Positions 1-38,040 of a stretch of 38,040 nucleotides of DNA are shown here, piece by piece. The notes below the pieces were generated by a model. It worked only from the letters and a program-made list of their open reading frames with translations, searched no databases and was not told the DNA's origin. Origin of the DNA: Desulfurobacteriaceae bacterium (GTDB taxonomy: Bacteria; Aquificota; Aquificia; Desulfurobacteriales; Desulfurobacteriaceae). Made by a program: the position numbers and the translations under genes. The stretch's first letter is position 1, and the number at the start of each line of letters is the position of its first letter. The DNA lies in contig JALTBO010000033.1 in assembly GCA_027075275.1 (NCBI GenBank), forward strand, positions 1-38,040. The letters run 5' to 3'.

Positions 1-718
1 GTTTTATCTGAACTAGTGGGATTTAAACTTCCGGGCATAGCTCGATAGTTTGGGTGATTGTGGATTGTTTTATCTGAACTAGTGGGATTTAAACAATATA
101 ATCTGAACCTCATCATCACAACCTTGAGCGTTTTATCTGAACTAGTGGGATTTAAACTGTTGAGAAATACGGCGGGCTAAACGAGAGGGTGAAGTTTTAT
201 CTGAACTAGTGGGATTTAAACCTCTTTCATTTAGACCCTCGCAACGATCCTCTTGAGTTTTATCTGAACTAGTGGGATTTAAACCTCGGCAGCTTCCTTC
301 GGCTCGAACCCGGCATCTATGTTTTATCTGAACTAGTGGGATTTAAACCTTTCTTAAACGAATCCCTCAAAAGAGACTGCTGGGTTTTATCTGAACTAGT
401 GGGATTTAAACTTAGGAACAGAGTATGTGGCTTTTCTGAAAGTTTTAGTTTTATCTGAACTAGTGGGATTTAAACCATCATTGCCTTCACAACAACCTCA
501 AAAGGTCTCCCGTTTTATCTGAACTAGTGGGATTTAAACACAATAAAAGCCCCGATAATCGCAAGAGCCATAACAAGTTTTATCTGAACTAGTGAGATTT
601 AAACCTATGTTATAGCTCTCAGACACCCCGTAGAGGAACTTGTTTTATCTGAACTAGTGGGGGAGAGGTAATCACTTTTCTCTACGAGAACATCTCAAGT
701 TTTATCTGAGCTAGTGAG
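1..718 (+). CRISPR. CRISPR array, trailing (leader-distal) end
   Basis: Ten full 28-bp repeats begin at 1, 67, 130, 194, 257, 321, 384, 448, 512 and 577. The repeat starts GTTTTATCTGAACTAG and ends TGGGATTTAAAC. Spacers are 35-38 bp and unique. Repeat 10 has one change (GTGGG to GTGAG). Repeat 11 (642-661) keeps only its first 20 bases, and repeat 12 (699-718) carries two further changes before losing its 3' part. Decay at the right end and the 3' ending ATTTAAAC, which resembles the 8-nt 5' handle of Cas6-processed type I-B/III crRNAs, both point to transcription left to right, with leader and cas genes to the left of the window. The array begins exactly at the window edge, so more repeats probably precede it. 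No cas gene is in the window, so the subtype is not determined. Confidence 0.97.
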
Positions 719-745
719 AGTTCTGGGTTAAAGGAGAATGGGGAT

Positions 746-771
746 TAAACTTTTCAAGCTATTTGCGATAA
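746..771 (+). promoter_or_regulatory. sigma-28 (FliA)-type promoter for flgK-flgL
   Basis: TAAACTTT (746-753), 11 bases, then GCGATAA (765-771). The enterobacterial sigma-28 consensus is TAAAGTTT-N11-GCCGATAA, so this matches except for one base in the -35 box and one missing C in the -10 box. It lies 30 bp before the flgK start; flgK and flgL are late, FliA-dependent genes in many bacteria. The -35 TAAA lies inside GGGATTAAAC (741-750), which looks like a remnant of a CRISPR repeat end. Confidence 0.72.
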
Positions 772-801
772 TAGAATTTAGACCACTATGGTGGAGGTGG
801 A

Positions 802-2151
802 ATGTCTCTTTTTGGAGCTCTCACGGCGGCCAGTCAGGCTCTCCTTTCTCAGAAGATAGGTATAACAACAACTAATAGGAACATGAATAACGTTTATACG
901 GATGGTTATTCAAGGGAAACTCCAGTTTTTGCCGACCTGCCCGGCCTTGGAGTTCAGGTAGAAACTGTTAAGCGGGTTTTCAGCAGAGCTTACTTCAAGC
1001 GGTTAATTTCAGAAAACGGAGACAACGCGCAACTTTCAGCCTATAAGAACGTTCTTTCCCAGATAGAGAGCCTCTTTAACGACCCTATGGGTAGCGGTCT
1101 TTCAGAGGCCATTAACCAGTTTTTCAACTCACTTCACGATATAGCCGTTAAGCCGGACGATATCGCGGCAAGGGCTAACTTTCTCTCTGTTGCTAAAACA
1201 CTGGTTGGAAGAATTAGGGATACTTACTCCTCTTTGGAGGAGATTGAAGCAACTTCGGTTTCCCATCTGAGAGATGTTATTTCTGAAGTAAATAGATTAA
1301 CTGAGAAACTGGCAGAAATTAACAAAAATATGCTGATTTTTAAAAATTCTCCTGAACGTTTTAATCAATATTTAGATGAAAGGGACAGAACATTAAAAGA
1401 GTTAAGTTCTTTAGTTGACGTAAAAGTTGTCTATTTGCCAGATGAGAGGGTTAGAGTTTTTACAGCTAAAGGTTTTCCTCTGGTTTCTGAGGAGAGAAGT
1501 TTTAACGTCTCTGTTGAACAGTCTTCAGACGGAGTTAAGGTTATTGCCGACGGCGTTGACGTTACAGATGAGTTTAAAAAAGGAAAAGTTGCCGGTATCG
1601 TTTCTGGAATAAAAGCAGTTGAAGAGTACAAAAGTAAGCTTAATCTTTTAGTTTCAACCTTTGCAGGGAAGGTGAATGAGCAGCACGAGGCCGGCTATAA
1701 CCTTTACGGAGAGAAGGGAGTTTCCCTCTTTAGCTCAGATAACGGTCAGCCGATAGACGCTTCAAACATCGTTTTGGCTTTTGAAGATCCAAAAAAGGTT
1801 GCCGCTGCTTCAGATTCCAACTATCTCAATTCAGATAATACGAATGTAAAGGCTCTTATTGATCTGGGACAGCAGACTTTTTCAGAGCTTTCAGATTTGA
1901 GTTTCTCCGAGTATTACGGAACTGAAGTTGCTTCTTCTATTGGAACTGAGGTAAAGTCTGTAGATGACCGTTTAAAGGCCTCTCAGTTCAGGCTGGAATC
2001 TATAGAGGAAAAAGTTAAGGAGCTCTCTGGAGTAAACATTGATGAAGAGCTTGTGAACCTTACAAAGTACCAGAGAGCTTATCAGGCCGCTGCAAGGGTT
2101 GTTACTGTTACAGATGAACTTCTCCAAACAGTTCTTGGTATGGTGAGGTAG
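802..2151 (+). CDS. flgK: Flagellar hook-associated protein 1 FlgK
   Basis: FlgK forms the first junction layer between flagellar hook and filament and is exported through the flagellar type III channel. The 449-residue protein has the conserved N-terminus MSLFGALTAASQALLSQKIG followed by the TTTNRNMNNVYTDGYSRE segment (residues 22-39) typical of axial rod/hook/HAP proteins. The C-terminal coiled helix contains LTKYQRAYQAAARVV, also typical. The length is within the normal FlgK range, and there is no signal peptide, as expected for type III export. The start is supported by GGAGGTGG just upstream. flgL follows after 2 bp, the usual flgK-flgL pair, and a sigma-28-like promoter lies upstream. 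Confidence 0.96.
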   Translation: MSLFGALTAASQALLSQKIGITTTNRNMNNVYTDGYSRETPVFADLPGLGVQVETVKRVFSRAYFKRLISENGDNAQLSAYKNVLSQIESLFNDPMGSGLSEAINQFFNSLHDIAVKPDDIAARANFLSVAKTLVGRIRDTYSSLEEIEATSVSHLRDVISEVNRLTEKLAEINKNMLIFKNSPERFNQYLDERDRTLKELSSLVDVKVVYLPDERVRVFTAKGFPLVSEERSFNVSVEQSSDGVKVIADGVDVTDEFKKGKVAGIVSGIKAVEEYKSKLNLLVSTFAGKVNEQHEAGYNLYGEKGVSLFSSDNGQPIDASNIVLAFEDPKKVAAASDSNYLNSDNTNVKALIDLGQQTFSELSDLSFSEYYGTEVASSIGTEVKSVDDRLKASQFRLESIEEKVKELSGVNIDEELVNLTKYQRAYQAAARVVTVTDELLQTVLGMVR

Positions 2152-2153
2152 CT

Positions 2154-36903: not shown

Positions 36904-36914
36904 TATTACCAGCA

Positions 36915-36941
36915 TTAGCACTCACCTTTAGAGAGTGCTAA
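36915..36941 (+). promoter_or_regulatory. CIRCE element (HrcA operator)
   Basis: TTAGCACTC, 9 bases, GAGTGCTAA: an exact match to the consensus CIRCE inverted repeat. HrcA binds it and represses class I heat-shock genes until HrcA is inactivated by heat. It lies in the 5' leader, 26 bp before the groES ATG. hrcA itself is not in the window. Confidence 0.98.
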
Positions 36942-36967
36942 CAAAACCAAGGGAAGAGGAGGGCGAG

Positions 36968-37258
36968 ATGAAGCTGAAGCCGCTCTACGATAGGGTTGTC
37001 GTTAAGAAGATTGAAATGGAGCAGAAGACTGCTGGAGGAATCATCCTTCCCGACACAGCTAAGGAGGAATCTCAGATTGGAGAGGTTATTGCCGTAGGAG
37101 AGGGAAGACTCCTTGATAACGGCGAAATCAGGCCTCTCAAAGTGAAAGAGGGAGACAAAGTTCTCTTCAGTAAGTACGCTGGAAACGAAGTGAAGATTGA
37201 CGGAGAAGAACTTCTCGTTATCAGAGAAGAGGACATTCTCGCAATCGTTGAGGAGTAA
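36968..37258 (+). CDS. groES: Co-chaperonin GroES
   Basis: GroES forms the heptameric lid of the GroEL folding chamber. The 96-residue product starts [46 protein letters not shown] and ends with [33 protein letters not shown], covering the family's beta barrel. The [10 protein letters not shown] segment is the mobile loop that contacts GroEL. The frame is open 11 codons upstream to ATG 36935, but that lies inside the CIRCE element. ATG 36968 has GAGGAGGG at the right distance and gives the standard GroES length. Confidence 0.97.
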
Positions 37259-37286
37259 TTAAAAACCAAAGAGAGGGAGGTGAGAG

Positions 37287-38040
37287 ATGGCTGGAAAGGA
37301 AATAATCTTCGGCAATGAAGCAAGGCAGAAGATAAAGGCAGGTGTAGATAAACTTGCAAACGCCGTTAAGGCAACAATGGGTCCCGGCGGTAGGAACGTT
37401 GTTCTTGAGAGGAAGTTCGGCTCTCCGCTCGTTACAAAAGACGGTGTTACCGTTGCCAAGGAGATTGAACTTCCAGACCCTGTTGAGAACATCGGTGCCC
37501 AGCTTGTAAAAGAAGTAGCTCAGAAAACTGCTGACAAGGCAGGCGACGGAACAACAACTGCTACAGTTCTCGCTCAGGCCATCTACAGCGACGGTCTCAA
37601 GTTCGTAACGGCAGGCGAGAACGCAATTGAGATTAAGAGGGGAATTGACGAGGCCGTTAAGGTTATCGTTGACGAGCTCAAGAAGATTGCAAAGCCTGTT
37701 GAGACCAAAGAGCAGATTGCTCAAGTAGCTACAATTTCTGCAAACTACGACCGTGAAATCGGCGAGCTCATTGCCGAGGCTATGGACAAAGTAGGTAAGG
37801 AAGGCGTTATCACCGTTGAAGAAGCTAAGGGTCTTGAGACGACCCTTGAAGTTGTTGAGGGTATGCAGTTTGACAGGGGATACCTCTCTCCATACTTTGT
37901 GACAGACCCTGAGAAGATGGAGTGCGTTCTTGAGAATCCATACATCCTCATCTACGGTAAGAAGATCAGCAACATCAGGGAGCTCCTTCCAGTCCTTGAG
38001 CAGGTAGCAAGGGAGGGAAGACCGCTCCTCATCATTGCTG
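37287..38040 (+). CDS. groEL: Chaperonin GroEL, 5' part (cut by window end)
   Basis: The frame is open from the ATG at 37287 to the window edge, giving 251 codons of the usual roughly 540. The N-terminus [41 protein letters not shown], the ATP-binding [12 protein letters not shown] (about 86-97), and [59 protein letters not shown] are typical GroEL equatorial, intermediate and early apical segments. Note TISANYD where most GroELs have SISANxD. It lies 28 bp after groES with GGGAGGTGA upstream, in the same CIRCE-controlled operon. Confidence 0.98.

Follow-up and report, generated by a model that had tools for sequence, protein, structure and literature searches.

Background

The function of the highly iterated palindrome HIP1 of cyanobacteria (Robinson 1995, as cited in passages of PMC4390886 and PMC1939737) is unsettled. 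In the portions of PMC4390886 that deal with such words, the HIP density range is about 500-2,500 per Mb, one-base departures from the word (one-offs) are commonest at positions 1 and 8 and rare at positions 4 and 5, and Elhai ties the words to DNA methyltransferases, every cyanobacterial genome that has them being said to possess a methyltransferase able to methylate them. DNA uptake sequences (DUS) and uptake signal sequences (USS) are not palindromic according to a section of PMC1939737, and in Neisseriaceae the DUS dialects are only slightly different from one another, according to a section of PMC3630211. The subject of this report is a palindromic octamer, GGAGCTCC, in a stretch of 38,040 nucleotides (the window; contig JALTBO010000033.1 of assembly GCA_027075275.1) from a bacterium of the family Desulfurobacteriaceae, kin of the heat-loving Thermovibrio. 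A preliminary description of the window compared the octamer with HIP1 and suggested methylation, chromosome organisation or repair as its role. The present analysis indicates that the fuller word RGAGCTCY (R, purine; Y, pyrimidine), of which GGAGCTCC is the best form, is very probably a real signal, common to several genera and driven by some reader, in other words a watermark repeated throughout the genomes of these Desulfurobacteriaceae. Full-text searches of the openly licensed literature turned up, among the hits listed, no account of GGAGCTCC as an over-represented word, nor of a comparable word anywhere in the phylum.

Abundance of the octamer

The octamer occurs 38 times in the window, compared with a mean of 1.12 and a maximum of 7 in 100 dinucleotide shuffles, so that the preliminary hand count of about 38 was exact. 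By a first-order model it ranks first among all octamers of the window; the runner-up among palindromic octamers has 6 copies, and all 255 palindromes other than GGAGCTCC, the runner-up included, have 100 combined. GAGCTC is present 81 times and the near-copies AGAGCTCC and GGAGCTCT 26 times combined, in keeping with the earlier remark that the inner hexamer recurs several tens of times more, often in near-copies. The sites are listed here without strand.

2209-2216, GGAGCTCC site, codon phase 1
3483-3490, GGAGCTCC site, codon phase 2
3823-3830, GGAGCTCC site, codon phase 0
5444-5451, GGAGCTCC site
6027-6034, GGAGCTCC site
6374-6381, GGAGCTCC site
7827-7834, GGAGCTCC site
7892-7899, GGAGCTCC site
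9103-9110, GGAGCTCC site, open reading frame 8780-9439, codon phase 2
9587-9594, GGAGCTCC site
9962-9969, GGAGCTCC site
10100-10107, GGAGCTCC site
10656-10663, GGAGCTCC site
10758-10765, GGAGCTCC site
12218-12225, GGAGCTCC site
14640-14647, GGAGCTCC site
14733-14740, GGAGCTCC site
14844-14851, GGAGCTCC site
15069-15076, GGAGCTCC site
16371-16378, GGAGCTCC site
17026-17033, GGAGCTCC site
17249-17256, GGAGCTCC site
17675-17682, GGAGCTCC site
19691-19698, GGAGCTCC site, within the SecA open reading frame 19569-22157
21801-21808, GGAGCTCC site, within the SecA open reading frame 19569-22157
22356-22363, GGAGCTCC site
24268-24275, GGAGCTCC site
24597-24604, GGAGCTCC site
25064-25071, GGAGCTCC site
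28578-28585, GGAGCTCC site
30184-30191, GGAGCTCC site
30475-30482, GGAGCTCC site
31103-31110, GGAGCTCC site
32066-32073, GGAGCTCC site
32885-32892, GGAGCTCC site
33411-33418, GGAGCTCC site
36777-36784, GGAGCTCC site, intergenic, in a terminator-like hairpin 8 bp past a stop codon
37979-37986, GGAGCTCC site

The coordinates quoted in the preliminary description are correct, the copy placed in the region of 15076 being the one at 15069-15076, as are its three examples of codon phase (2209 in open reading frame 2154-3095; 3483 and 3823 in 3103-3894). The open reading frame picker used for gene and phase counts is crude and keeps only some frames; it places 36 of the 38 sites in genes, 22 on the forward strand and 14 on the reverse, with 7, 5 and 24 in phases 0, 1 and 2, which bears out the claim that genes of both strands carry the word. 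The two sites that it omitted are 9103, which really lies in an open reading frame, and 36777, the sole intergenic copy of the window, which had been noted as lying outside genes in a terminator and does form part of a 7-bp hairpin with a run of T behind it (z -2.1; 6 of 200 shuffles fold equally well).

In the genome to which the window belongs (G000; 1,481,592 bases in 136 contigs, 87% complete; SecA 95-96% identical to its nearest named records, from two Thermovibrio sp. and one Desulfurobacteriaceae metagenome-assembled genomes), GGAGCTCC is the top octamer both by Markov models and by synonymous shuffle, with 1,290 copies (871 per Mb, 0.87 per kb), and RGAGCTCY has 2,490 copies (1.7 per kb). 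Markov models of orders 1 to 5 predict 1.1, 2.0, 4.2, 10.8 and 20.0 copies in the window. The sixth-order model, which the preliminary description had put forward as a check with agreement as a refutation, was run on the window and predicts 34.7; this resembles a refutation but is uninformative because the octamer itself inflates its 7-mer counts, and was dismissed. The reversed word CCTCGAGG has 2 copies in the whole genome, a control that is biased low because it contains TCGA, which is avoided here, and the shuffles were relied on instead. TCGA occurs 7 times in the window where 121 are expected, two of the copies (42 and 304) being inside a CRISPR (clustered regularly interspaced short palindromic repeats) array.

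Coding and noncoding DNA

If codon usage, Glu-Leu dipeptides or base composition produced the octamer, the excess should disappear in synonymous shuffles, which keep proteins and codon counts though not codon-pair bias. In favour of this explanation, the GAG-CTC phase holds most genic sites (92 of 123 in a G000 sample of 138,040 bases, made up of the window and five other stretches), and about half of the sites in that phase in the relative G013 are accounted for in this way (19 observed, 10 expected). Two hundred shuffles of the window's genes gave a mean of 3.85 copies and a maximum of 10 against the 36 observed, and shuffles of the G000 sample gave 11.7 (largest of 20: 17) against 123. The excess is present in every phase, with 21, 10 and 92 copies in phases 0, 1 and 2 of the sample where 3.1, 0.6 and 8.05 are expected, and in noncoding DNA as well. 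Codon or Glu-Leu bias is thus ruled out as a sufficient cause, as the preliminary description had argued, the confinement to a single phase that would have spoken for it was not seen, and for the window's genus the explanation has practically no chance of being right. G013, with 327 copies genome-wide, was not kept among the high-copy genomes because the shuffle assigns about half of the copies in its sampled genes (10 of 21) to codon usage.

Noncoding DNA was defined strictly as DNA with no open reading frame of 50 amino acids in any frame; in 655,040 bases sampled from ten high-copy genomes, 17,337 bases so defined contain 14 copies of GGAGCTCC, compared with 0.27 expected by a first-order model. 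Laxer counts based on the crude picker include missed genes, the 50-residue version being the safe one: 13 sites lie in the 10,961 bp within 60 bp past a stop codon, and the rest of the DNA not covered by kept frames, missed genes included, has 26 in 38,940 bp. A terminator role was rejected, the post-stop sites being too few to carry the phenomenon.

Form and distribution of the word

The form of the word was examined in a pool of five genomes of the window's genus (G000-G003 and G005) against synonymous-shuffle expectation. The octamer GGAGCTCC was found 308 times (32 expected), AGAGCTCC/GGAGCTCT 242 times (51 expected), AGAGCTCT 75 times (22.5 expected), and the central-transition pair GGAACTCC/GGAGTTCC 72 times (41 expected, a ratio of 1.7). 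None of the remaining ten one-off pairs exceeds expectation, and CGAGCTCC has only 8 copies where 30.7 are expected (ratio 0.26). Positions 1 and 8 deviate only to A/T (observed/expected ratio 4.7), and the transition at positions 4 and 5 has a ratio of 1.7. From these one-off counts the fuller motif is best written RGAGCTCY; within the genus of the window the only tolerated substitution is A for the outer G, although the central transition is slightly over-represented. The word GGAATTCC (39 copies in the genus where 15 are expected) was not counted, since it is also raised in genera that lack the octamer (16 where 9.0 are expected).

In a count over 136 genomes of the phylum, GGAGCTCC exceeded 400 copies only in genus g1 (all six genomes), genus g4 (three of four), genus g6 (both) and G088 (407 copies). 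RGAGCTCY numbers 1,653-2,808 in g1, 1,780-3,119 in three genomes of g4, and 2,355 and 1,429 in g6, a density of 1.1-2.0 per kb in the 11 genomes of these three genera. It numbers 215-792 in the AT-rich genus g3, where a sample of G007 favours the outer A (AGAGCTCC 30 vs 5.2 expected, AGAGCTCT 29 vs 6.3), and is scarce in g5 and g7 of the same family (40-102 across six genomes); single counts are 28 in G006, 1,020 in G013 and 741 in G049. On a tree of SecA, a single gene in 21 rows, the high-copy genomes imply three changes; as this protein does not fix the deep fork of the family, the trait may have had one origin or several.

G088 belongs to another family of the phylum and has 1,783 copies of RGAGCTCY with the same excess (in its sample, AGAGCTCC 29 vs 4.7 expected, AGAGCTCT 17 vs 2.9 and GGAGCTCC 13 vs 3.4); an independent origin or a transfer is possible for this distant genome. 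The reversed word CCTCGAGG is abundant in other families (277 copies in G072, 297 in G080, 374 in G132); in small samples from these genomes it occurs 3, 4 and 14 times, with shuffle expectations of 3.9, 2.6 and 4.2.

Conservation and spacing of sites

Conservation of sites between relatives, which the preliminary description had named as a check, was assessed by aligning G000 with four congeners (82-87% identical). Of 107 sites, 65 are intact (15/23, 17/36, 16/22 and 17/26), a rate 1.5 to 2 times that of other octamers of equal GC content (0.31-0.40); other NNAGCTNN palindromes are intact at 0.25-0.67 (6-18 cases each). Five remoter high-copy relatives have 10 of 50 sites in common with G000 (0.08-0.18 for GC-matched octamers), and in the alignment with G013 none of 8 sites is intact (0.16 for the comparison). 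Taken near and far, these counts mean that density is kept while positions turn over. Half of the 24 one-base losses relative to the four close relatives are the central transition. Spacing fits a Poisson process (295 spacings from four genomes, mean 1,094, coefficient of variation 0.99), and neither helical phasing nor regular spacing was detected in these spacings, the period-3 signal being that of the codon frame.

The turnover of positions would suit a functionless mutation bias or gene conversion, for instance by a repair enzyme with a context preference, under which sites are gained and slowly lost. Such a process would be hard put to produce eight bases with purine and pyrimidine edges in all codon phases, and some one-off neighbours, such as CGAGCTCC, are below expectation; this explanation is very improbable.

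A one-base variant in two relatives

The relatives G006 and G013 favour the non-palindromic RGAGCTTC over the palindromic word. In 245 kb of genes from G006, GAAGCTCC occurs 94 times (21.7 expected by synonymous shuffle) and AGAGCTTC 81 times (28.4 expected), the symmetric GAAGCTTC occurring 15 times (10.5 expected); in 241 kb of genes from G013 the corresponding counts are 161 (41.8), 134 (28.3) and 5 (12.0). All three codon phases are represented in both. Across whole genomes and both strands, GAAGCTCY numbers 2,177 in G013 and 925 in G006, compared with 103-461 in each of the remaining 22 genomes of a set of 24. On the SecA tree G006 and G013 do not form a sister pair, and two changes are forced.

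Chi and KOPS (FtsK-orienting polar sequences) are polar sites. Chi is also mentioned in parts of PMC1939737 and PMC4390886. A polar site of this type was rejected for the present word on the absence of strand bias in the variant, which divides into 146 copies on the G-rich strand and 167 on the other in 13 stretches of G013 oriented by GC skew (p 0.26), and by gene direction into 146 and 149 in G013 and 93 and 82 in G006.

A HIP1-like intracellular site offers another explanation, in which a dimeric repair, recombination or nucleoid protein would bind GGAGCTCC and about one site per kb would be selected with no need of methylation. The palindromic core and symmetric R...Y edge, the survival of sites between close relatives above that of other octamers and a density within the HIP range are all consistent with it, but a symmetric dimer fits the non-palindromic variant of G006 and G013 poorly, and the random spacing shows no phasing; it is the main rival of the uptake reading given below, possible if rather doubtful.

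GAGCTC itself is strongly avoided in G006 (14 copies where 96.4 are expected; stretches L103-L105 and L168-L177), where no C5 methyltransferase was found, and restriction pressure may have driven the change of dialect in that genome. In G013, hexamers containing GATC are near absent (GAGATC 5 vs 127 expected; stretches L123-L125 and L158-L167), and the genome lacks both a D12 match and an above-cut-off match to PF01555.

Methyltransferases and restriction-modification genes

The classical account of HIP words (Elhai 2015) would have a GAGCTC or AGCT methyltransferase, together with methyl-directed mismatch repair, raise the word. It has the cyanobacterial parallel of a palindrome at about one per kb with one-offs commonest at positions 1 and 8 (in parts of PMC4390886), and the central transition (12 of 24 losses, and GGAACTCC at 1.7 times expectation) is what would follow if a methylated C at the centre were deaminated, though in the commonest phase position 4 is at the same time the silent position of the Glu codon. 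Five Pfam families of methyltransferase were sought, four of them in 24 genomes, with matches in 18 genomes for PF01555 (N6/N4), 6 for PF00145 (C5), 10 for PF02086 (D12) and 24 for PF02384; the fifth, PF07669, was sought in 14 genomes, where G001, G004 and G013 have matching frames of about 1,288 residues, G020 has two of more than 1,000 residues and G001 a further one of 493 residues, other matches being weak and short. M.AluI and M.SacI belong to the C5 enzyme class. None of the six genomes with C5 enzymes is in the window's genus. In G002, a high-copy genome that is 99% complete and has 1,309 sites, PF01555, PF00145 and PF02086 are all without a match. Of its PF02384 matches the strong one is a type I HsdM; the weak one, of 246 residues (such weak matches being for the most part 250-300 residues long), looks like a HemK/TrmN-like small-domain methylase and reaches the cut-off of none of the 25 NCBIfam families listed.

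All seven PF01555 genes of the genus adjoin a nuclease of another type (DpnII type in G000, G001 and G005; MjaI type in G001 and G004; TaqI type in G001; BsaWI type in G003), the PF01555 enzyme of G000 being CcrM/DpnA-like, and the D12 match of G000 was rejected as a cognate methyltransferase since it is RsmD. An orphan type II methyltransferase would also not make the non-palindromic variant. No recognised DNA methyltransferase of the five families sought tracks the word, as judged by family and neighbouring genes; an enzyme of another family or of unpredicted specificity may yet be the methylator. The search for a GAGCTC/AGCT methylase proposed in the preliminary description thus recognised no cognate among the five families, its suggestion of a methylation role is not supported, and the classical account is unlikely. 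A HIP-like word of the same density in an unrelated group with no recognised cognate methyltransferase would suggest that methylation is not always the cause of such abundance.

The DpnII-type enzyme and its CcrM/DpnA-like methyltransferase (L005:1417-3161, L006 and L007) sit after the same 417-residue gene in G000 and G001 and after a remnant of that gene in G005; a search of PDB with the DpnII nuclease gave no match. The TaqI-type nuclease beside a methyltransferase in G001 is at L032, and TCGA is the tetramer near absent from the window. Five restriction-modification loci contain 2 octamers in 9,270 bp where about 7 would be expected at the rates of their own genomes. The word is sparse there, as would be expected of recent arrivals, though the AT-richness of these genes (GC 0.34-0.39) lowers their expectation and so counts against that reading.

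A possible function in DNA uptake

Narrow specificity, density, turnover of positions and a one-base dialect with neither symmetry nor polarity together point to a protein that reads either strand. Such a sequence-specific reader would act on DNA in trans, and the word would become fixed wherever the encoded proteins allow. The likeliest candidate may be the DNA-binding part of the natural-transformation machine: fragments bearing the word would be imported and recombined more often, and the word would spread in the manner of DUS and USS. By analogy with those systems, the word may tentatively be regarded as a signal for the uptake of self-DNA. That it is specifically a methylase-independent, palindromic uptake signal (or an equivalent code of self-recognition) outside cyanobacteria, in a family of the Aquificota, whose symmetry was broken in two lineages, can be suggested only with further reserve. 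If the word is an uptake signal, uptake specificity would be extended to this phylum. The competence protein ComEC (PF03772) is encoded in 20 of the 24 genomes.

Several observations weigh against an uptake signal or against the sharpness of the word. ComEC is equally present in genera that lack the word, and was not found in G000 (87% complete) or in G015, G017 and G023 (all less than 90% complete). The main form is palindromic, unlike DUS and USS. Noncoding DNA is about as dense in sites as DNA overall (0.81 and 0.72 per kb). One-off words are kept in congeners at 0.40-0.69, little below the octamer, and TGAGCTCC is also raised in a pool of g4 and g6 (36 vs 18.8 expected). There is no flank preference beyond about 3 bases, and the preferences at -1 and +1 probably arise artefactually from the conditioning on the site. 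In sharpness the variant falls short of the main word: AAAGCTCC is also raised in G006 (57 vs 21.0 expected) and AGAGCTCC in G013 (75 vs 32.5), and unrelated words are raised comparably (CCTTGCAA 43 vs 10.9 in G006, GTCTGCAA 34 vs 5.9 in G013). Genomes with the word, without it and with the variant constitute a natural comparison set for finding the reader.

Other features of the window

The CRISPR array of the window occupies positions 1-727 and consists of 12 repeats of GTTTTATCTGAACTAGTGGGATTTAAAC, the last two degenerate. Three spacer pieces from its approximately ten spacers, sought in viral contigs as a foreign-DNA control, had no exact match there.

Comparison with known systems

The present word is similar to both HIP1 and DNA uptake sequences without being a clean fit to either. 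It resembles Chi and KOPS in being a short over-represented octamer and differs from them in having no strand polarity, even in its asymmetric form. The likeness to HIP1 drawn in the preliminary description holds in that GGAGCTCC is a GC-rich palindromic octamer at about 870 per Mb, found in all codon phases and in coding and noncoding DNA beyond what Glu-Leu usage explains. As with HIP1 and the alternate HIPs, it is the top over-represented word at about one per kb (871 per Mb, within their range), its one-offs are commonest at positions 1 and 8, and other words replace it in some relatives. Unlike HIP1, it has another sequence and belongs to another phylum, its outer bases are restricted to R...Y, its central transition is mildly raised, its replacement word is non-palindromic, and no cognate methyltransferase was recognised among the families sought, contrary to Elhai's rule.

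Like DUS, the word occurs about once per kb on both strands with no polarity (which only the asymmetric variant can reveal), the dialects of relatives are one or a few bases apart (RGAGCTCY and RGAGCTTC), a competence gene is present in the family, and one site of the window is in a terminator hairpin. It differs from DUS in that the core of its main form is palindromic, with asymmetry only in G006 and G013, in that it is only 8 bp long and its reader is a postulated one, and in that the competence gene does not track the word. A palindromic uptake signal, if that is what the word proves to be, would unite HIP1 and DUS as one evolutionary class.

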